In this document: piece by piece, positions 4,032 to 29,065 of the stretch | Layout of the letters: each line of letters begins with the position of its first letter | Numbering within the stretch: position 1 is the first letter of the stretch | Origin: a virus | Virus record (IMG/VR): IMGVR_UViG_3300027821_000022 | Coordinates: 1-29,065 of that record | Reading direction: 5' to 3' (one strand) | DNA: 29,065 nt | Made by a program: the position numbers and the translations under genes | Notes under the pieces: generated by a model | Seen by the model: the letters and a program-made list of their open reading frames with translations, nothing else | Told to the model about the DNA's origin: nothing | The model's database searches: none

Positions 4032-5591
4032 ATGGGTCTCATCGAGCGCATCCGAGCTAGCAGGTCTGAACAACGTGTAATCGGCGGAGTGCCGTGGCGA
4101 TTACGCCCCTGGGACTCACCGTTCGTCAAGTTTGACGCAGGCGGTCCTGCGCACCCGACCAGGGCATTCTTCGGCACTGACAAGGCGCTTGCGCTGCCCG
4201 CGCTGTACTCCGGAGTGTCCCTGCTGGCCAACTCCACTGCGGCGCTGCCGCTGAAGCTGTACGTCAAGCCGGGACCGGGCGAGACCCGCACCCAGCGGTA
4301 TAACGGGCCGTCCATTTTCGACCACCCCAGCGTGGACGGCACCGTCTTCGACTGGCTGTTCATGTGCATGAGCTCGCTGCTGCTGCAGGGCAACGCGTGG
4401 GGCCTGATCACCAGCCGGGACGGCTACGGGCTGCCGCAGAGCATCGAGTGGATGCCGCCGGAGGACGTCAACGTCGTCAACGACGAGATGGCCCCGTTCA
4501 ACCCGCTAAGGGCGCGGATCTACTGCTACGGCCGGCTGATGGACCGCAGCGAGCTGTTCCACATCAAGGCGTTCAGCCTGCCCGGCCGGATCGAGGGCCT
4601 GAGCCCGCTGCGCGCGTTCGCGCTGACCATCTTGTCCGGGCTGGAGGCCGAGCGGTACGGGACCGACTGGTACCTCGCCGGGGGATTCCCGCCCGGGACG
4701 TTCGAGAACACCGAGATCGAGATCAGCCGGGAGCAGGCCGAGGAGATCCGCGGCATGCTCACCTCCACCATCCGGAGCCGGCAGCCGCTCGTCTACGGCC
4801 GTGACTGGAAATACTCCCCGGTGGTCGTGCCGCCTTCTGAGGCGCAGTTTATTGAGGCGATCCGCATGAACGCCACGCAGATCGCCTCAATCCTCAATCT
4901 TCCCCCGGACCGCATTGGCGGCACCAGAGGCGACAGCCTCACCTATAACACGGTGGAGCAGAGCACGCTGCAGGTGATCGAGGCGCTGCGGCCGTGGCTG
5001 GTCCGGCTGGAAACCGCGTTTTTCGGGATCCTGCCGCAGAACCGGTACTGCCGTTTCAACAGCGACGCGCTGCTGAAAACGGATTTGAAGACCCGGACCG
5101 AGATCTACCACACGCAGCGGGAGATGGGCCTGCGCAGCGTCGATGAGATCCGTGACCTGGAAGACCTCGAGCCGCTGCCTGGCGGGGCCGGCAACGAGTT
5201 CATCCCGCTGGAGGTCATGGTGGCGATGGCGCGCAGCATCCGCGGGATCCCGAAGTCGATGGAATCCTCGATCGACCTGGAAATGGACCTGGCAGCCGAC
5301 AAGCTGCAGGAGCTGGCCAAGCAGGGCCTGGCGCAGCCGACGCCGGGGGACATGCCCCAGGTGCCGTCTGCCGGACAGGAGCTCGGCCAGATTATCGCGT
5401 CCCAGCGCCACTACGGCGGGACGCGGGAGGAACGCGAGGATGCCCAGCTGATCCTCGATTTCCTCGAGATGCGTCGCCGGGCTAAGGCGGCCGTTAAGGA
5501 AAGCCCGCCCGAGTTCGTGGGAGCGTGGATCCCGTCACGCCAGGACTTGGTGCTCAGCGGGACTAACGGTCACCGCAGGGGTGATGGCTGA
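4032..5591 (+). CDS. Phage portal protein, HK97 type
   Basis: Dodecameric ring at one capsid vertex through which DNA enters and leaves. About 519 residues, slightly longer than the usual 400-500. Family signs include PALYSGVSLLANSTAALPLKLY (read in pieces, near residues 57-80), the conserved LQGNAWGLI, the wing/clip region with EGLSPLRAF, and QIASILNLPPDRIGG with the later Asn/Thr-rich stem sequence. A charged C-terminal extension after about residue 430 is likely flexible. ATG 4032 is preferred over TTG 4026 because GGGAGGGGG lies about 9 bases away. The last 22 bases overlap the stop of the opposing HNH gene. Confidence 0.93.
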   Translation: MGLIERIRASRSEQRVIGGVPWRLRPWDSPFVKFDAGGPAHPTRAFFGTDKALALPALYSGVSLLANSTAALPLKLYVKPGPGETRTQRYNGPSIFDHPSVDGTVFDWLFMCMSSLLLQGNAWGLITSRDGYGLPQSIEWMPPEDVNVVNDEMAPFNPLRARIYCYGRLMDRSELFHIKAFSLPGRIEGLSPLRAFALTILSGLEAERYGTDWYLAGGFPPGTFENTEIEISREQAEEIRGMLTSTIRSRQPLVYGRDWKYSPVVVPPSEAQFIEAIRMNATQIASILNLPPDRIGGTRGDSLTYNTVEQSTLQVIEALRPWLVRLETAFFGILPQNRYCRFNSDALLKTDLKTRTEIYHTQREMGLRSVDEIRDLEDLEPLPGGAGNEFIPLEVMVAMARSIRGIPKSMESSIDLEMDLAADKLQELAKQGLAQPTPGDMPQVPSAGQELGQIIASQRHYGGTREEREDAQLILDFLEMRRRAKAAVKESPPEFVGAWIPSRQDLVLSGTNGHRRGDG

Positions 5592-6271
5592 TGCTTCAGC
5601 ACGTTCTCCCGGCTCGCGCGGATTTCCTCCGCGGGGATCAGCCCGCAGTCGTACATCCGGTGATGGTTCGGGCACAGCATCGTCACGTTCTCGATGCTGT
5701 CATCCCCGCCGTCCTTCCGGCTGATGATGTGCGCGACGTCGCACGGGGCTTCTGCCCAGCCGCACAGGCTGCACTGGTCGCGGAACTCACGGCGGATTAT
5801 GGCGCGAAACGTGTGATGACTTGTGTAGACGCTGTTGGACGGCCGCCGCCCGGTCATGATCGTGCTCAGGCCAGCCGCCCGGCAGTCCGCGTCGCAGTAG
5901 ACGTTCTCGCCGTAAACGGCCTGCCGGATCGCGATGCTCATGCTGGATACGCTGACCCCGAGCTCGGCAGCCATGGCCGTCATGGTCGCTTCCTTCGCCT
6001 CGTAGCGTCTGCGGCATTCCGCGGTGATCTCCGTGGTCAGCTTCTTCGAAGCCCGGGTGTTCTTGCGGGTCGCGCCCTTCTGCGACGGCAGGTACTCAAC
6101 CGGCTCACCGCAGTACGCGCAGGGTGCTGTCAGCCGGGGCAGCCGGGCGCGGGGCGGGTGCGTCTTCTGGTACGCGAACTTGCAGTCGTTACCGCAGAAC
6201 TTAGCCGTCGCTGCCTTACCCGGATACACCGTGTAGGGGGCGCCGCACTCAAGGCACGTTACCTCAACCAT
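5570..6271 (-). CDS. HNH endonuclease with zinc ribbons and an internal HTH-like insert
   Basis: Probable free-standing homing endonuclease, lying on the opposite strand between portal and protease genes. It has 233 residues. A first zinc ribbon uses C6, C9, C26 and C30. A second starts at C51/C54, but its partner pair is only at C126/C130; about 55 residues between them hold a basic segment and an HTH-like helix pair (MAAELGVSVSSMSIAIRQAV). The C-terminal HNH nuclease has C167/C170, CDVAHIISRKDGG with H181, and CPNHH at 200-204. Base composition is less GC-rich than its neighbours, consistent with recent arrival. It could nick a phage lacking it and so spread; its target is unknown. Confidence 0.85.
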   Translation of the reverse strand: MVEVTCLECGAPYTVYPGKAATAKFCGNDCKFAYQKTHPPRARLPRLTAPCAYCGEPVEYLPSQKGATRKNTRASKKLTTEITAECRRRYEAKEATMTAMAAELGVSVSSMSIAIRQAVYGENVYCDADCRAAGLSTIMTGRRPSNSVYTSHHTFRAIIRREFRDQCSLCGWAEAPCDVAHIISRKDGGDDSIENVTMLCPNHHRMYDCGLIPAEEIRASRENVLKHQPSPLR

Positions 6272-11379: not shown

Positions 11380-11730
11380 GTGCTCACCGTGGTCACCGGG
11401 CTGCCCGGCGCGGGCAAGGCCGCCTACGTGGCCGAGCACAAGGACCCCGGCGACATCGTCATCGACTTCGACCTGATCGCGGAGGCCATCGGCTCGCCGG
11501 TCCCGCACGATCACAGCCCGGAGATCACCCAGGTGGCCCGGTGCATGAGGGGGACCGGAATCCGGGCGGCGCTGCACTGGGCCGCCCGCGGCAAGCAGGT
11601 ATGGATTATCGACTGCGAGCCGCCGCTGATCCGCCAGCTGCAGTACCTCGGCGCGGCATGCCGGGTCGTGCGGCTGAACCCGCCCCCGGGCGGGCGGAGG
11701 CGGCGGCTCGCCGGAAGGCGCGCATCATGA
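11380..11730 (+). CDS. P-loop NTPase-like protein
   Basis: A 116-residue protein from GTG, with GGGAGG 6 bases upstream. Walker A is GLPGAGKAA (residues 7-15): the Lys is present but the following Ser/Thr that normally binds magnesium is Ala, so activity may be changed or lost. IVIDFDLIAEAIG (about 26-38) and VWIIDCEPP (about 74-82) resemble the acidic strands of polynucleotide-kinase-like phage proteins. The tail is very basic (RRRRLAGRR). Its TGA overlaps the peroxidase ATG, so the two are translated together. Role unknown. Confidence 0.65.
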   Translation: MLTVVTGLPGAGKAAYVAEHKDPGDIVIDFDLIAEAIGSPVPHDHSPEITQVARCMRGTGIRAALHWAARGKQVWIIDCEPPLIRQLQYLGAACRVVRLNPPPGGRRRRLAGRRAS

Positions 11731-13544
11731 CCCACGACACCCCTCGTACCCCCAGCCCCCGCGACCCCTCGTACGACCCCGTGCACGCCGCGATGTCCCG
11801 GCGGACCCTGCTGCGCCTCGGCCTGGCCGCGGGCGGCGGGGTGGTGCTGCTCCGCGGCGGCGGCCGGGCACTGGCGGGTCCGGCTTCCGCCGCGGTCGCC
11901 GCGGTGCCCGGGGAAGACGCTCAGGCCGCCACGTTCGGCCGGATGTTCCCGGCGCTGAAGCCGTTCAGCCCGGACGCCGACGTGAGCACGGCCCTGGCCG
12001 ACCTGGCGGAGCTGGCCGACGCCATGCTCGAGCCCGGCGGCGGCGTCGACACCACGCACGGCGCGGCGTACACCTACCTGGCCCAGTTCGTGGACCATGA
12101 CGTGACGCTCGATCTCCAGCCGCAGCCCACCGATTTCTTCAGCTTCAAGGGCACCAGCGCCCGGGACCCGCTGCTGGACCCCGCGGGCAACCCGGTGCCG
12201 GATTTCGAGACCAAGAAGCTGGACCTGAGCCAGCTGTACGGCGGCGGACCCGCAGTCTCACCGCAGCTGTACGCCAGCGACGGCGTGCACTTCCTGGTGC
12301 CGAAGAACGTCAACGGCGTCGTTGACCTGCCGCGCAACGCCGATGGCTCGGCGGTCATCGTGGAGAAGCGGAACGACGAGAACCAGATCCTGTCGCAGAT
12401 GCACGTCGCGCTGCTGCTGTTCCACAACGCCGTCGCCGACGCGACCGGGGTCAAGCAGGCCAGCAACTTCAATCAGCTGCAGACCCTCGTGACGCAGTAC
12501 TACCAGTGGGTGGTGCTGCACGACATGATGCCGCTGTTCTTCACTCAGGCCGTGGTAGACGACCTGCAGCAGGGCAAGCACAAGGTCTATGACCCCGGCG
12601 CCGACGTCGCCCGGCCGGTCATGCCGGTGGAGTTCAGTACCGCGGCGTACCGCTTCGGGCACTCGCTGGTCAGGAACGCTTACTCGATGAACCCGGTGAT
12701 CAGCCCGAACAACAAGAATGCCAGGAATACGCTGTTCGCCGGCGTTGGCGGCGCGGCTGGCCCGGCGGGCGGGACCGGCACCGCGAAGACCCCGGTGGGC
12801 GACCTGCATGGCGGGTACGCCCTGACCCTGGACCACCAGATTGACTGGCGCAATTTCCACGAGGACTTGTTTGATTCCTCGGTGCCCGGAGCCAGCCTGC
12901 AGGTGCTCAAGCAGCCGGGCGGCGGCGACGGCCTGCACTGCATCGGCCAGTCGATGTTCGGCCAGCCGCCTGGCGTCCCGCTCGTCGGGACCGGCGCGGG
13001 CATGCCCATCGGCGGCCCGGCCGGGGTCCAGCCCGAGGGCTCCAACTCCGTCGCCTACCGGGACTTCGTCCGCGGCCACTTCTACCTGCTGCCGTCCGGG
13101 CAGGACATCGCGACCGCGTACGGGCTGACCCCCGTCGACCCGGGCCAGATCGTGCCGGCCTCGATCCCCGGGTTCGCGAACGGCACCCCCCTGTTCCTGT
13201 ACGTGCTCTACGAGGCGTACCTGGCCAACAAGGCCAGCCCCGCCGTCGACAATTTCGACAACACCGGCACGGCCGCCGACTTCACCCAGGTCAGCCTCGG
13301 TCCGGTCGGCAGCCGGATCTGCGCGGACGTGCTGCTGCGGCTGATCGACCTGGACCCGCACGGGATCACGCACGGGAACTTCAGCCCGGCCCCGCCGATC
13401 GCGCCGGCCCCCGGCCGGTTCACGCTCGCCGACCTGCTGAAGTTCGCCGGCGTGGTGCCGTCCGGGTCCAGCCCCGCGCCCGCGCTCGGCCAGAACGCCG
13501 GGCCGCAGCCTGCCGTCACTCCTGGCCCGACAGCGACCGCCTAG
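11727..13544 (+). CDS. Tat-exported haem peroxidase, animal peroxidase superfamily
   Basis: Probable haem enzyme that uses hydrogen peroxide to oxidise halides or organic compounds. 605 residues. A twin-arginine signal, SRRTLLRLGLAAGG (R25-R26), points to export of a folded, cofactor-loaded protein. The distal site is QFVDHD (120-125), with H124 as distal His and D123 as the haem-linking Asp. The catalytic Arg and second haem-linking acid fit KRNDE (R215, E218). The proximal His is H312 in YRFGHSLVRN. These match the myeloperoxidase-type fingerprint in the right order. LDLSQLYGG (165-173) is also typical. The Pro-rich C-terminus is likely flexible. ATGA overlap with the P-loop gene supports ATG 11727. 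Confidence 0.88.
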   Translation: MTHDTPRTPSPRDPSYDPVHAAMSRRTLLRLGLAAGGGVVLLRGGGRALAGPASAAVAAVPGEDAQAATFGRMFPALKPFSPDADVSTALADLAELADAMLEPGGGVDTTHGAAYTYLAQFVDHDVTLDLQPQPTDFFSFKGTSARDPLLDPAGNPVPDFETKKLDLSQLYGGGPAVSPQLYASDGVHFLVPKNVNGVVDLPRNADGSAVIVEKRNDENQILSQMHVALLLFHNAVADATGVKQASNFNQLQTLVTQYYQWVVLHDMMPLFFTQAVVDDLQQGKHKVYDPGADVARPVMPVEFSTAAYRFGHSLVRNAYSMNPVISPNNKNARNTLFAGVGGAAGPAGGTGTAKTPVGDLHGGYALTLDHQIDWRNFHEDLFDSSVPGASLQVLKQPGGGDGLHCIGQSMFGQPPGVPLVGTGAGMPIGGPAGVQPEGSNSVAYRDFVRGHFYLLPSGQDIATAYGLTPVDPGQIVPASIPGFANGTPLFLYVLYEAYLANKASPAVDNFDNTGTAADFTQVSLGPVGSRICADVLLRLIDLDPHGITHGNFSPAPPIAPAPGRFTLADLLKFAGVVPSGSSPAPALGQNAGPQPAVTPGPTATA

Positions 13545-19717: not shown

Positions 19718-19774
19718 ATGAACGCCCCTTCGCCGATGCGGATCTTCGCCGGGCATGACGGCGGGTCCGGCTGC
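19718..19774 (+). pseudogene. Stranded 5' end of a glycosyltransferase gene, copy 1
   Basis: AGAGGAAG then ATG 19718, reading MNAPSPMRIFAGHDGGSGC. The 13 residues from M at 19736 match the start of the second copy at 21236 (31 of 39 bases, one residue differs, other changes synonymous). The first base after TGC (19775) is already the stop codon of the leftward cassette gene, so the gene is cut exactly there. Read on, the frame runs through antisense sequence and is meaningless. Confidence 0.7.
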
Positions 19775-20122
19775 TCAGGGTGCACTGATGATGATCCGGA
19801 GTTGCTTGATGCGATGCTCCACCTGAAGAACCAGGTCGGCGATCGCCATGAGACGCGTGGTTTCGCCGGGCGTGTACTTACCGCGGGGCGTGGCCTGCCG
19901 GGTGATCTCGCCTGCCGTCCGCATCGCAGACGCGATCATGTTCTCGAGGTCGCCGATTTGCTCGTGGAGTGCAGTGTCAGGACGGCTAGCCGGAGCGCCC
20001 CCGTTAACTCGAGTGGGAGGAGCGCTAGCGTCAGACCGGGTGGCCGGCGCCCTGGTCGGCCTGCGGCCACCGGGGGCGATGCTACTTGAACGGGGCGTAC
20101 GGGTGCGCGTCTTGCTGGTCAT
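19775..20122 (-). CDS. Cassette gene 3: small protein with basic start and helical end
   Basis: A 115-residue protein starting at 20122, where AGGAGGT lies 4-5 bases upstream on the minus strand. Residues 1-52 are basic, Ser/Thr/Pro rich and disordered (MTSKTRTRTPRSSSIAPGGR). Residues about 55-113 are helical (TALHEQIGDLENMIASAMRTAGEI, then RLMAIADLVLQVEHRIKQLRII). A DNA-binding tail plus coiled coil is possible. It overlaps the HTH gene by 41 bases and ends flush with the broken glycosyltransferase. No family recognised. Confidence 0.65.
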   Translation of the reverse strand: MTSKTRTRTPRSSSIAPGGRRPTRAPATRSDASAPPTRVNGGAPASRPDTALHEQIGDLENMIASAMRTAGEITRQATPRGKYTPGETTRLMAIADLVLQVEHRIKQLRIIISAP

Positions 20123-20609
20123 CGAGACCTCCTCTACTTGAAGGGGGTCCCGCCTCCGGTGCGCGCCGCCGGGCTCGGGTAGGGCCAGCGTACGCGGGTC
20201 CGGCATCTGACGCAACTGCGTCAAACAAGGACGCTAGCTCGGCATCTAGGTTCAGCAAATCTTGCAGGATGTGCAGCATGTGCTCGTCGGTAAGGCGGTG
20301 CGTAGCGTCCTTCGTTGAGCCCGCCGCAGCCCACGTCTGGTTGTCTGCATCCCACCGGTACGCTGTCGTCTGGCCCCACCGACGCAGCACGTGGTTTAGC
20401 CTGTCGATAATCGCTGCTTCCCCTGGGCTCAGTTCGTTGGGGTGGTTTAGCCGAGCTAGGGCTTCAGCTTTGCGGCCTGCTAGCGCTTCATATTTTCTTC
20501 GCTGGAACGTGCGACGGCTTACCCCTAGTCGCTGGGCTGCTTCAGGGTCAGTAAGCCCGGCGTCTACCAGCAGCAGGACGTACCTGGGGTTTATGTACCT
20601 GCTACCCAT
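20082..20609 (-). CDS. Cassette gene 2: helix-turn-helix protein
   Basis: A 175-residue protein starting at 20609, four bases after the HNH stop, with GGGAGAC upstream. Residues about 8-38 form a helix-turn-helix (YVLLLVDAGLTDPEAAQRLGVSRRTFQRRKYEAL), like those of small regulators and terminase small subunits. The middle (PGEAAIIDRLNHVLRRWG and YRWDADNQTWAA) is unfamiliar, and the last 35 residues are Pro/Arg/Gly rich and overlap the next start. It may control the cassette or help its endonuclease. Less GC-rich than phage neighbours. Confidence 0.65.
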   Translation of the reverse strand: MGSRYINPRYVLLLVDAGLTDPEAAQRLGVSRRTFQRRKYEALAGRKAEALARLNHPNELSPGEAAIIDRLNHVLRRWGQTTAYRWDADNQTWAAAGSTKDATHRLTDEHMLHILQDLLNLDAELASLFDAVASDAGPAYAGPTRARRRAPEAGPPSSRGGLDDQQDAHPYAPFK

Positions 20610-20613
20610 AGCC

Positions 20614-21216
20614 TCAGTCTCCCACTGCCGTTGCATCGGCACAGACGCATGGTGCTCCAGGGATGGCGAGCTGATGCTGGCCGCAGATCACGCCGTTGTC
20701 GACTGGGAAGTTCAGCCGGGCGAACGCGCCCCAGGCTTCAGTCGCGGCAGCGTCGTACACCTTTGCTGCCTCGGCTTCGTCGGTGAACCTGCCGAGGTTG
20801 TAGTGCTTCCCGCTGACGCCGATCCAGGCAGCCCAGCGTCCGCGCCCTTTGTCCCAGGTAACGCCTTTGTATTGCGAGGACCGCCGGTTGCGCTGGCCGC
20901 CGCGGTTGGCCTGCTGCTGGCCACGCGAGGCGATGCGCAGGTTGTGCTTCTGATTGTCCAAGCCCCAGCCGTTCCAGTGATCGACCGACTCGTCCGGGCC
21001 GGCGCCTGCGATCAGCCGGTGCATGTAAAGGTGCATCTTGCCGTTCCAGGCGTGCGCGTAGAACAGGCCGCTATTCGCTTTCAGCACGCGCCAGGGGAAC
21101 CCGGCGATGAGCAGCTGGTCAGCGTCATCGAACAGGACCTTGTAGTCCTCCGGGAGTATCAGAGACAGCACGGTATTAGCGTACCGCGTATCCACGGATG
21201 AAAGGAACGGTAACAT
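20614..21216 (-). CDS. Cassette gene 1: HNH homing endonuclease with AP2 DNA-binding domain
   Basis: A 200-residue protein starting at 21216 (an alternative start is 21237). The HNH part is MHLYMHRLIAGAGPDESVDHWNGWGLDNQKHNLRIASRGQQQANR (in pieces, about residues 59-103), with the V-D-H and LDN-NLR signature of phage HNH_3 enzymes; Trp replaces the usual Ile in VDHING. Then comes an AP2 domain (SSQYKGVTWDKGRGRWAAWIGV, GRFTDEAEAAKVYDAAATEAWG). HNH-AP2 fusions are typical homing enzymes and often sit in conserved genes. Here it sits in a glycosyltransferase gene, flanked by copies of that gene's start. Confidence 0.87.
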   Translation of the reverse strand: MLPFLSSVDTRYANTVLSLILPEDYKVLFDDADQLLIAGFPWRVLKANSGLFYAHAWNGKMHLYMHRLIAGAGPDESVDHWNGWGLDNQKHNLRIASRGQQQANRGGQRNRRSSQYKGVTWDKGRGRWAAWIGVSGKHYNLGRFTDEAEAAKVYDAAATEAWGAFARLNFPVDNGVICGQHQLAIPGAPCVCADATAVGD

Positions 21217-21284
21217 GCCGGTGACCCCTGCACCCATGAAGATCTTCGCCGGACACGACGGAGGCTCTGGGTGCGCTTTAAGCC
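21215..21284 (+). pseudogene. Second, frameshifted 5' end of the glycosyltransferase gene
   Basis: ATG 21215 reads MPVTPAPMKIFAGHDGGSGC, but the frame then departs from the enzyme: TAT TAT CGC ATG (21285-21296) continues the expected sequence (YYRM) in another frame. Seven extra bases (21277-21283) relative to a GCx-TAT join explain the shift, and a TAA (21279-21281) blocks the downstream frame. Unless ribosomes shift by +1 here, the enzyme loses its first strand. The ATG overlaps the opposing endonuclease start. Confidence 0.65.
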
Positions 21285-21293
21285 TATTATCGC

Positions 21294-22265
21294 ATGACCA
21301 TGCCGCTGCGCGAGCTGGGCCTGCACGACGGGTTCGAGGTGACCTTCGCAGACGCCAGCGACACGAATCATCCGCCGATCGTCACCCTGGACATGCTGCG
21401 CGGGTTCGACGTGGTGACCGCGCAGCGCTGGAACAAGCACGACGGCCTGGGCACCTGGCGCCGGGCCGCGCAGTGGGCGAAACTCTGCTACGAGCTGGAT
21501 GACGATCTGTGGAATGTCACCCCGGAGAACTTCAACGCCTACATCCTGTATAACCGGCCGGACATCCAGGACGCGACGCAGCACGCCGCCGAGACCGCCG
21601 ACCTGATCACCGTCACCACCGAGCCCCTGGCGCAGGTGATGCGCGAGGTGGCCGGGCACGACCGGGTGGCGGTGCTGCCCAACTGCATCCCGGAGTGGGT
21701 GACCCGGCTGCCGCACACGCTGCACCGCCGCCCCCGGGTCGGCTGGCAGGGCGGCGCGAGCCACGGCGTCGACATCGGCCAGGTGGCCAGCCCGGTCCGC
21801 CGGTTCCTCAAGCGGTTCGGTGACTGGGACCTGCAGCTGAACGGCCAGGACTACCGGGAGACGTTCAAGGCGCCGCGGGACCGGGTGTTCTGGGTGCCGT
21901 GGGTGCCGGTCTACGAGCACGCGCCGAAGTACTACGCCTCGATCAACTTCGACATCGGGCTGGCGCCGCTGTGGCCGACCAGCTTCGCCCGGTCAAAGAG
22001 CGCTATCAAGGCCATCGAGTACGGCGCCCGCGGCATCCCCACCATCGCCAGCGACATCGAGCCGTACCGGAGCGTGATCACCCACGGGGTCGACGGGTTC
22101 CTGGTGAAGCACGATCACGAGTGGCTGCGGTACCTGTCCGAGCTGGCGGGCGATGACGACCTGCGGGAGAAGATGGGCGAGGCGGCGCAGGACATGGCCC
22201 GGCGGCACCTGATCGAGGACCACTGGCAGGACTGGGCGAACGCGTACCGCGGGCTGTTCCGGTAA
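21294..22265 (+). CDS. Family-4-like glycosyltransferase (GT-B), N-terminus displaced
   Basis: A 323-residue frame from ATG 21294. The expected full enzyme begins M-K-I-F-A-G-H-D-G-G-S-G-C-A-Y-Y-R-M, so about 20 residues with the first strand and glycine loop are off frame upstream. The rest is intact: FDVVTAQRWNKHDG, CYELDDDLW, TVTTEPLAQVM, VAVLPNCIP, VGWQGGASHGVD, and the donor-binding AIKAIEYGARGIPTIASDIEPYR with its E residue. Without the first strand the enzyme may be inactive, or a frameshift may restore it. The stop overlaps a small membrane gene. Confidence 0.75.
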   Translation: MTMPLRELGLHDGFEVTFADASDTNHPPIVTLDMLRGFDVVTAQRWNKHDGLGTWRRAAQWAKLCYELDDDLWNVTPENFNAYILYNRPDIQDATQHAAETADLITVTTEPLAQVMREVAGHDRVAVLPNCIPEWVTRLPHTLHRRPRVGWQGGASHGVDIGQVASPVRRFLKRFGDWDLQLNGQDYRETFKAPRDRVFWVPWVPVYEHAPKYYASINFDIGLAPLWPTSFARSKSAIKAIEYGARGIPTIASDIEPYRSVITHGVDGFLVKHDHEWLRYLSELAGDDDLREKMGEAAQDMARRHLIEDHWQDWANAYRGLFR

Positions 22266-26764: not shown

Positions 26765-27118
26765 CTACGCGCTGGCCCGCCGGTCGCGCTCGGCCTGGCG
26801 GATCCGGTCGTACGGGTCGGTGATGATGCCGCCCTGCGGCCCGCGGCGTACCGGGACTGTGCGGGACCGGACCCCGTGGTGCAGGCCCTGCGCGGCACCC
26901 TGGTTGCACAGGGCATGCGCGGCGCGCAGGTTTTCCCCGCGGTCAGACCCGCCCAGGGACCGGGGCACGACGTGGTCGACGGTCGCGGCCCACGGCGACC
27001 CCCGCTCCAGCTTCGGGTCTATCTTCCGGTCAGGCCCGCCGGAGGCGCCCGGGTGCAGGCACACGGGCATGCGGCAGGTCCACTTGTCCCGCCGCAGTAT
27101 CGCCAGCCGTGAGGCCAT
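26765..27118 (-). CDS. HNH endonuclease
   Basis: A 117-residue protein starting at 27118, with GGAGGTG 8 bases upstream. HNH core: TCRMPVCLHPGAS, TVDHVVPRSLGGSDRGENLRAAHALCN (in pieces, residues about 14-72), with C and DH pairs and the closing NLR-x-x-H-x-x-C-N that binds zinc. Compact form without extra domains, like HNH proteins near phage packaging genes. It could cut DNA in packaging or be a homing enzyme. It lies at the end of a leftward operon below an unknown gene and the TROVE gene. Confidence 0.82.
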   Translation of the reverse strand: MASRLAILRRDKWTCRMPVCLHPGASGGPDRKIDPKLERGSPWAATVDHVVPRSLGGSDRGENLRAAHALCNQGAAQGLHHGVRSRTVPVRRGPQGGIITDPYDRIRQAERDRRASA

Positions 27119-27135
27119 GCGCCGTGCACCTCCGT

Positions 27136-27474
27136 TCAGGGACTCAGGTTGTCCAGCCGGGTGCGCAGCTCGCGGGCGCGCTGCATGACCAGCACCCTGT
27201 TGCCGGGATGGGCGTCCAGCTCGTCCAGCAGGTTCAGCGCCTCCTCGGCGATGCCCACGAAAATCGCGGCGTCGCAGGCTAGCCGCCACACCTCCGGGTA
27301 GTCCCGGTCCGCGCCCCGCAGATTCTCCGGACGTCCGGAGGGTGGCCCGGACGGGATCTCCGGGTCCAGGTGCGCGTAGAGGCCGCGGTGACCCTGTGCA
27401 GGGCCGCCGCGGTCCTCGTACGCCTTGATTCGCTGCTCTCGCTCCCGCCGCGCCTGGCGCTGGCGGGCTCCCAT
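27136..27474 (-). CDS. Hypothetical protein between TROVE and HNH genes
   Basis: A 112-residue protein. Basic start (RQRQARREREQRIKAYEDR), then a Pro/Gly part (PSGPPSGRPENLRG) encoded in part by the second copy of the 16-base palindrome, then helices (VWRLACDAAIFVGIAEEALNLL and MQRARELRTRLDNL). Its start overlaps the TROVE stop by one base, so it is coupled to TROVE and could be a partner protein. No family recognised. Confidence 0.6.
   Translation of the reverse strand: MGARQRQARREREQRIKAYEDRGGPAQGHRGLYAHLDPEIPSGPPSGRPENLRGADRDYPEVWRLACDAAIFVGIAEEALNLLDELDAHPGNRVLVMQRARELRTRLDNLSP
27325..27340. repeat. 16-base perfect palindrome, copy 2
   Basis: Identical to 3319-3334 (CTCCGGACGTCCGGAG), here inside the gene at 27136-27474. 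Confidence 0.6.
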
Positions 27475-29065
27475 CAGATGTCGCCCCGGGCGTGGTTAGC
27501 CAGGAGCTGCGGGACGTCGCTGTCGAAACCGGCGACGTCCAGCTCACGCGGCTCGTCAGGCCGGGCGATGGACGTTCCGGTCGCGGTGACCGAGATCACC
27601 TGCAGCCGGGCGTCGATGCCCATGGCCTGGCGGTAGTTGTCCAGCGCCTGGTGCGGGTGCACCGAGCCGAACCACGTCTCGTTGTCGGTGATCACGCGGA
27701 ACGTGTCCACCTCCACCCGGTTCTTCCGCGCCCACTCCATCGGAGCCGCGCAGTCAGTTCCGCCGTGGCCATGCCGGAGCATGACCCGCATGACGTCGTC
27801 CAGCCGCTGGCCCGGCGAGATCGTCAGCGGGTACAGGCCGCTGCTCGCGAAGCCGTACAGGCCCCAGGCCGGCTCGGTGTTGGCCATGACCAGCGCCAGG
27901 CCGCCCGCGACCTCCACCGCCGTGAACGGGTACATCAGCTCACGGTAGCTGTCCGGCTTCATGATCGGCCAGGTCATCGACGCCGAGGTGTCGCAGGCGA
28001 TCAGCGTCCGCGTGCCCGCCGGCTCCACCGCGCCGTAGGCGAGGTAGAACGCGTCGTTCAGCGCGTCGATGACCTGCGGCACCGCAGACCACGTGGAGTC
28101 GCCCTTGAGGGACGCGCCCCGCGCGTAGGTCTTCAGCGCGATCAGGACCGCGATCGGGTGGATGCGGGCCTTGACCAGCCGCGCCTGGTCGCGCAGCTGC
28201 GCGCAGACGATGCCCAGGTGCGAGCTCATCGGCGCGAGCACGCCGAGCCGGGTCAGCTTCGGCAGCTGCCGCAGCAGCGCGCCCATCGGCAGGCCCGCGT
28301 CGATCAGCGCCCGCCAGACGTCAGCCTGGCCGGTCGCCTCGTCCGGCAGCGCCTCCCACGGCAGGCCCGGGTACTGGCCGATCAGGCCGACGTAGGCAGC
28401 GGCCTTCGCGGCCACCTTGCCGTCACCGCGCTCGATCTCCCGGGCGCGGTTGTACGCCGTGACCCACTTCGGCAGCTCGCTGTCGACCTCGTGGCCGGTC
28501 ACCCAGCCGAACAGGGCGTTGTGCTCCGCCATCAGCGTGCCGTCATCCGTGCGCGGCTTGGCGTGCGCCATCCGCAGCACGTCGGCGTGGTTCCAGCCGA
28601 CCCTGCTCCGGTACTTGACCATCTGGTAGGCCAGCTGCTCCGGGTCCTTCTCCAGGTACCACCGGGCGAACGCACGGCGGGTCACCGGACCCCAGCCGCC
28701 GAACTGCTCGGAGTACTTCGCGCCCGTGAACAGGTGCGTGCCGGTCCGCGCGACCTTGGTGAAGGCACGCTCGGCCGCCCGCCGGCCCTCGACATCGGCG
28801 AGGGACATGGCGGCCAGAACCGCGAGCAGCGCCGGCTGGTTACGCGGCGCCCGGCCCGCGACGGAGATCTCCTCCGCCAGCGCGACCAGCTCGGCACCGT
28901 GGTTCTTCGCCCAGTCGATGATGACGCCGCCGTTCTCCGCGGTCATCTCCCGCTGGGTCGCGTAGTACGTGGACTCCGAGCCCAGGGTGAGGAACCTGCG
29001 GATCCGGTTCTCGGCGGACACCTCGAAGACGTAGCCGCCGGCCCGGTTCTTCACCTGCCGCGGGT
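27474..29065 (-). CDS. rsr: Ro60-like TROVE protein with vWFA domain (5' partial)
   Basis: RNA-binding ring protein of the Ro60/Rsr family, which binds small Y RNAs and misfolded RNA in quality control. The frame stays open past the window end, and relatives have further residues before N-R-A-G-G-Y, so the start lies outside. Counted from GTG 29054: RAGGYVFEV (4-12), RIRRFLTLGSESTYYATQREMT (18-38 in pieces) and QPALLAVLAAMSLAD start the TROVE ring (to about 340). The vWFA domain has its metal site at DTSAS (355-359), GGTD (431-434) and ITDNETW (455-461). Ring and metal motifs look intact. Phage-borne homologues are known but uncommon. Confidence 0.92.
   Translation of the reverse strand, partial: PRQVKNRAGGYVFEVSAENRIRRFLTLGSESTYYATQREMTAENGGVIIDWAKNHGAELVALAEEISVAGRAPRNQPALLAVLAAMSLADVEGRRAAERAFTKVARTGTHLFTGAKYSEQFGGWGPVTRRAFARWYLEKDPEQLAYQMVKYRSRVGWNHADVLRMAHAKPRTDDGTLMAEHNALFGWVTGHEVDSELPKWVTAYNRAREIERGDGKVAAKAAAYVGLIGQYPGLPWEALPDEATGQADVWRALIDAGLPMGALLRQLPKLTRLGVLAPMSSHLGIVCAQLRDQARLVKARIHPIAVLIALKTYARGASLKGDSTWSAVPQVIDALNDAFYLAYGAVEPAGTRTLIACDTSASMTWPIMKPDSYRELMYPFTAVEVAGGLALVMANTEPAWGLYGFASSGLYPLTISPGQRLDDVMRVMLRHGHGGTDCAAPMEWARKNRVEVDTFRVITDNETWFGSVHPHQALDNYRQAMGIDARLQVISVTATGTSIARPDEPRELDVAGFDSDVPQLLANHARGDI

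Follow-up and report, generated by a model that had tools for sequence, protein, structure and literature searches.

A 2016 review regards translational bypassing as well established for bacteriophage T4 gene 60 and for the mitochondrial genes in a single yeast, and knows a link to a homing endonuclease from T4 alone. There, the HNH homing endonuclease gene mobA adjoins a short out-of-frame insert that the ribosome jumps, and this insert is thought to protect against the adjacent endonuclease (PMC5009743, PMC3014915). Here we analysed a locus of similar layout in a phage contig of 29,065 nucleotides (nt) from IMG/VR (record IMGVR_UViG_3300027821_000022, the whole of which is called the window), which has 69.8% GC and carries terminase, portal and capsid genes. 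A cassette with an HNH-AP2 endonuclease gene separates two copies of the start of a glycosyltransferase (GT) gene, and the second copy is out of frame with the enzyme body. We read this arrangement, with a probability of about 0.62, as a 5'-replacement module that is associated with a homing endonuclease and equips a phage GT gene with a site of recoding dependent on UUA. Several features set it apart from T4: the gene 60 gap is structured, 50 nt long and has a stop codon in the A site, whereas the gaps at the GT loci are 1-7 nt long and hold the rare codon UUA; unlike mobA, the element at the GT site targets a GT and brings a whole new gene start; and bypassing in T4 is experimentally proven, whereas at the GT loci we infer it from sequence.

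UUA in actinobacterial phages is named by the 2016 review as the best candidate for regulatory bypassing, and bypassing at UUA is considered likely, in the review by Atkins, for the terminase of Streptomyces phage phiHau3 (and prophage Strep C.1). Read directly, the phiHau3 terminase frame (L164:2329-3995, annotated only as misc_feature) breaks at GGC-TTACTCC-GGT, which shares with GCT-TTAA-GCC of the window a take-off codon, UUA and a landing codon of the same transfer RNA (tRNA), but differs in gene, gap length and sequence; neither an inserted homing endonuclease nor a duplicated start is described for it in the text consulted. In the mORFs of fungal mitochondria (Allomyces atp6; Glomus atp6, atp9, cox2 and nad3), the foreign gene end of a stand-alone homing endonuclease replaces the native one and a remnant is left (PMC3630166). 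In those cases the C-terminus is replaced, the endonuclease is of the LAGLIDADG or GIY-YIG type and the described fusions are in phase (PMC3630166), whereas the GT site has a replaced 5' end with start signals, out of phase, and an HNH-AP2 enzyme. Phage endonucleases of phrog_99 have the HNH plus AP2 architecture in common with the GT-site enzymes, whose lineage is distinct from them and comes with a replacement start. A homing element combined with translational bypass is a kind already known, and would here involve UUA and a replaced gene start.

The duplicated start and its frame junction

As the original prediction had it, the GT start occurs twice in the window, at 19736 and 21236 and hence exactly 1500 bases apart (with further in-frame ATG codons upstream at 19718 and 21215, respectively), and the two copies share 31 of 39 bases, with R/K as the sole amino-acid change. 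Copy 1 terminates at TGC (19772-19774), flush with the stop (TCA, 19775-19777) of the last leftward open reading frame (ORF), and the three minus-strand ORFs expected between the copies, for an HNH-AP2 protein, a helix-turn-helix (HTH) protein and an orphan helical protein, are all present. Behind copy 2, the window reads TGC GCT TTAAGCC TAT TAT CGC, whereas the family norm, TGC-GCx-[TGG/TAT]-TAY-CG, has no such excess, and copy 2 is offset by 7 bases from a body whose frame is open from TAT at 21285 through 22265. The excess that shifts the frame is real, while its placement at 21277-21283 is not unique, 21275-21281 (GCTTTAA) and 21278-21284 (TTAAGCC) fitting equally well. This +7 junction is not a product of chance, because seven distinct phages, the window included, have it.

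We classified 52 distinct GT starts and added two found later (L165 and L167), about 54 loci in all, which are not fully independent since short modules spread horizontally; two loci first flagged as out of frame (L111 and L116, where the match began one residue late) were counted as in frame. Thirteen starts were out of frame with their enzyme and 41 in frame, the IMG/VR homologues mostly reading straight through M-x-I-F-A-G-H-D-G-G-S-G-C-x-[WY]-Y-R. Intact homologues with the start motif thus make up 41 of about 54 loci, which does not contradict insertion into one gene as first proposed. At all 13 out-of-frame loci the break lies between GGSGC-x and [WYF]YR. The offset was +7 (GCTTTARGCY) in seven loci (window, L053, L057, L094, L098, L106 and L108), +1 in a T run in three (L058, L061 and L066) and +5 in three (L097, L107 and L165). 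The zero-frame codon at the break was TTA in 12 of the 13. Among the 6,204 codons in the genes of the window TTA was seen twice, and among 12,142 codons of 36 GT bodies not once. Take-off and landing codons read by the same tRNA were present at 11 of the 13 (all seven +7 loci, L107 with TCC/TCC and the three +1 loci with TTT/TTT). A further search for GCTTTA junctions returned new matches mostly in unrelated genes, the only GT among them being L167, where GCT-TTA-GCC (L167:3982-4008) follows a leader of the same type with an in-frame excess of 6 and provides a natural control.

The leader, the cassette and the filled and empty site

A common leader precedes the starts that are out of frame; in it, AAGG(A/G) is followed by a short hairpin and then by GGTGA, and TGCACC stands before the start codon. 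The stem was formed in all 12 aligned leaders (100% paired), and in five of them both sides carry an exchange of G-C for A-U. The leader was present at 12 of 13 loci with an out-of-frame start, compared with 3 of the 41 in frame (Fisher p about 1.6e-8, loci not being fully independent). In L061, AGGAGGTGA is contiguous, AGG and GGTGA having no hairpin between them, and because AGGAGGTGA is uninterrupted there, the hairpin may split a Shine-Dalgarno sequence; comparable structures occur in T4 genes 25 and 38 (PMC3014915). Relative to its in-frame relative L087, L094 has a 41-nt leader insert and a 7-nt GCTTTAA insert on either side of the N-terminal codons, besides scattered substitutions, and the out-of-frame start appears to be a module, not a point mutation.

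Two further leader features were observed. A short upstream frame ending in ...V-S-L-H-P-TGA (or similar), its stop overlapping the GTG start of the GT, was seen in L094, L098, L106, L108, L107, L097, L083 and L100, and could possibly represent a leader peptide or translational coupling. Four in-frame GTs (L051, L055, L015 and L067) carry a different, near-identical leader, GGAGGG-NN-TAAAATTAGG, with no ATG, GTG or TTG and ATT as the apparent start, which raises the question of a second mobile 5' end.

L108 and L109, phages 97-98% identical over the aligned flanks, represent the filled and empty alleles of one site. L109 has an intact, in-frame GT start; at the same codons, L108 has an antisense HNH-AP2 gene with its stop flush with a truncated copy 1, then the leader, the new start and the junction of GGGTGCGCTTTAAGCC with TGGTACCGC, so that copy 2 and GCTTTAAGCC stand after the insertion. 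On the left edge of this single pair, the 12 bases before the insertion contain four third-position mismatches, whereas the rest of the flank has about 1.1 per 60 bases, as co-conversion would leave. Together with the pair itself, this cluster supports the earlier suggestion that the cassette is a homing-type insertion and came with a 5' end that had diverged. The original prediction had also proposed looking for the cassette in other phages at this motif, and HNH-AP2 genes were found at the same GT site in L108 and in L165, the latter with a window-like layout of HNH-AP2, leader and out-of-frame TTA junction. Equivalents of copy 1 are present in L108, where it ends one codon earlier than in the window, and in L004, while L165 and L094 are essentially without it. 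In L004:5827-6001, two GT starts only 131 nt apart and a +7 junction were observed with no endonuclease, which may be the remnant of a cassette deletion.

The endonuclease domain matches a homing family (Table 1). Identities at the GT site were 49% (window and L108), 56% (window and L165) and 65% (L108 and L165), and other HNH-AP2 relatives compared reached at most about 46-49% to this trio over partial stretches; the three enzymes form one lineage, specific to the GT site. The proposed overlap between the ATG codons of endonuclease and copy 2 is likely accidental. The endonuclease aligns with its L108 homologue only from Y19 (21183), and the start codon indicated by the alignment is a GTG at 21171 (VLSLILPED in the window, MLKIPLTET in L108), so that it probably starts there. 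L108 and L165, the other two endonuclease-bearing loci, carry the HNH-AP2 gene alone, without HTH or third ORF; relatives of the HTH protein, sought in viral_contigs and phages, were not found, and the third ORF has a homologue in none of the other fetched loci. As to duplicated gene ends at other HNH-AP2 loci, a scan that overlooked its positive control, L139, is uninformative.

Table 1. Features of the glycosyltransferase locus in window coordinates
Feature	Position	Strand	Remarks
Copy 1 (vestigial native GT 5' end, MNAPSP-MRIFAGHDGGSGC)	19718..19774	+	separated from enzyme body, abuts cassette
Orphan ORF, 149 amino acids (aa)	19775..20224	-	without family match; cargo of window cassette only
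HTH (HTH_23-like) protein, 186 aa	20082..20642	-	Pfam PF13384 7.6e-07; cargo of window cassette only
HNH-AP2 homing-type endonuclease	20614..21171 (ORF open from 21237)	-	phrog_99 5.8e-32, AP2 2.7e-07; likely GTG start 21171
Replacement leader of copy 2: AAAGGA, hairpin CGGT (21208-21211) / GCCG (21217-21220), GGTGA...TGCACCC	21200..21235	+	common to 12 aligned loci
Copy 2 (new GT start with codons of the N-terminus, MPVTPAP-MKIFAGHDGGSGCA)	21215..21277	+	predicted beta-1 and start of alpha-1 of GT (AlphaFold of intact homologue L041)
Proposed recoding site GCT-TTA-A-GCC	21275..21284	+	GCTTTARGCY kept in 7 loci; TTA in 0/12,142 GT-body codons
Predicted GT4-like GT-B glycosyltransferase body, 326 aa from YYRM	21285..22265	+	phrog_7162 1.3e-43, PF00534; +1 frame relative to copy 2

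Recoding and competing explanations

According to the proposed mechanism, an HNH-AP2 lineage would insert into the conserved GT start codons, at or near the boundary of GGSGC with x-[WY]YR, and import the hairpin leader and a start codon, together with 13 codons of an N-terminus in keeping with the GT subfamily and a short spacer that is out of frame and holds the very rare UUA, while the native start would stay upstream as a remnant. The GT would be made by initiation at the new copy and subsequent recoding at UUA. For the +7 loci, the simplest course is that peptidyl-tRNA-Ala on GCU waits for the scarce UUA-tRNA, slides 7 nt to the cognate GCC or GCU and resumes at UAU or UGG, which would restore the native GC-A-[WY]YR. 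In the window, take-off would be at GCU 21275-21277, with UUA 21278-21280 in the A site, landing at GCC 21282-21284 and resumption at TAT 21285, and the predicted product is KIFAGHDGGSGC joined to the body, reading ...DGGSGCAYYR. At the +1 loci, peptidyl-tRNA-Phe would slip on U-UUU before UUA (UUU to UUU), restoring GC-x-F-YR. The spacer would probably also shield the module from its own endonuclease.

The original prediction took the GT gene to be broken, and the best-surviving competitor to recoding says the same: homing would have knocked out the GT, the out-of-frame genes would be pseudogenes of recent origin, and the module would be no more than a common parasite that carries a bit of flanking sequence. 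The reading frame is literally disrupted, and several out-of-frame loci do have close in-frame relatives. However, each of the 12 out-of-frame bodies that were checked is a long ORF without interruption, and their codon-position pattern (position 3 over position 2) was 1.65 compared with 1.63 in in-frame genes, a comparison used in place of the ratio of nonsynonymous to synonymous polymorphism (pN/pS), which is uninformative for the bodies at this GC content and divergence; the bodies appear to be without relaxed selection. The N-terminal codons of the out-of-frame loci likewise changed mostly synonymously while the shift persisted (five synonymous and no nonsynonymous differences between the window and L053), and each out-of-frame N-terminus fits the subfamily of its own body (as well fitted by 0 of 5000 permutations), with, for example, ILACHDGGTGC paired with L109-type bodies and RVFGMHDASGC with L093-type bodies. 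Decay, moreover, would not give 13 breaks at one codon, 12 of them with TTA. An offset that recurs at one exact place in 13 loci, with N-terminus and body both constrained, points to recoding and does not support a broken gene, and we consider a knockout unlikely.

A second explanation, which we regard as improbable, is internal initiation, with the GT translated from an ATG or GTG just past [WY]YR and copy 2 forming a separate small peptide. Such a codon lies 9 nt into the body in most out-of-frame loci, yet no Shine-Dalgarno sequence precedes any internal start examined, the first start in L108 lies 75 nt in, and L098 offers only a GTG at +9 before +108. The predicted fold also bears on this. 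The AlphaFold model of the intact homologue L041 (predicted local distance difference test score, pLDDT, 91.6) places beta-1 at residues 2-7 and alpha-1 at residues 11-26, and its fold matches in the PDB are BshA, MshA and PimA (GT4-type GT-B enzymes, at a sequence identity of only 10-18%), which suggests a GT4-like GT-B enzyme. The frame break falls inside the modelled alpha-1, so a protein started after it would be expected to lack beta-1 and the Gly-rich loop. An N-terminus that ended up in a separate peptide would, in addition, have no need to match the body's subfamily.

The remaining two explanations fare far worse. Splicing of copy 1 to the body, removing the cassette as an intron, is highly improbable: copy 1 (...GGSGC) joined to GCC-TAT would give GCAYYR, but neither the region of the window nor L108 matched an Rfam intron at E values up to 1, the L004 interval measures only 131 nt, two out-of-frame loci have essentially no copy 1, that of L108 is one codon shorter, and the endonuclease genes are antisense. 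That the window, a metagenomic contig, contains a sequencing or assembly error is hardly credible, the +7 junction being repeated in contigs of different metagenomes with different flanks.

Several observations weigh against recoding by a homing-borne module or leave its course less certain. L107 has no TTA, and at the +5 loci L097 and L165 take-off and landing codons agree at only two of three bases. The junction of L167 is in frame, and the ancestral state could accordingly have been a harmless insert that kept the frame. Given the horizontal spread of the modules, the +7 junctions did not arise seven times independently. In the DNA examined, 10 of the 13 out-of-frame loci have no nearby endonuclease. 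In absolute terms, pN/pS of the bodies is not low, since saturation affects synonymous sites in DNA of 70% GC, and the purifying selection seen on the N-terminus could in part be older than the frame shift. At the +7 loci, finally, a plain +1 slip after UUA (product DGGSGCALAYYR) is as possible as a 7-nt hop.

Neighbouring genes and implications

The nearest GT homologues in cultured phages are those of Streptomyces phages Zuko and KimJongPhill (37-38%), and one scan of genome_contigs with the GT alignment yielded only four distant Streptomyces relatives among isolates. GT ORFs of 506 to about 720 aa were observed in L055, L100 and L107, where the GT appears fused to a further domain. Elsewhere in the window, 11541-13544 (+) encodes a haem peroxidase of the animal type (PF03098, 6.6e-10), here in a phage genome and with an N-terminus that resembles a twin-arginine signal, and 27474-29054 (-) a Ro60/TROVE plus vWA RNA-binding protein (PF25045, PF05731; phrog_850). 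Two more HNH proteins are encoded at 5570-6271 (-), where the frame overlaps the portal gene's end on the other strand, and at 26765-27547 (-).

With a second, unrelated endonuclease and many short junctions, the GT loci form a natural series (+1, +5, +7 and the in-frame +6) for the requirements of bypassing. The junctions bear on whether homing elements escape self-cutting through an inserted sequence that ribosomes skip, and on UUA as a regulatory hop codon in actinobacterial phages. More tentatively, a mobile element that spreads a UUA-dependent hop, replacing the start of any gene in which it lands, might through the host's decoding of this rare leucine codon tie the expression of a phage sugar transferase to the tRNA supply or developmental state of the actinobacterial host.

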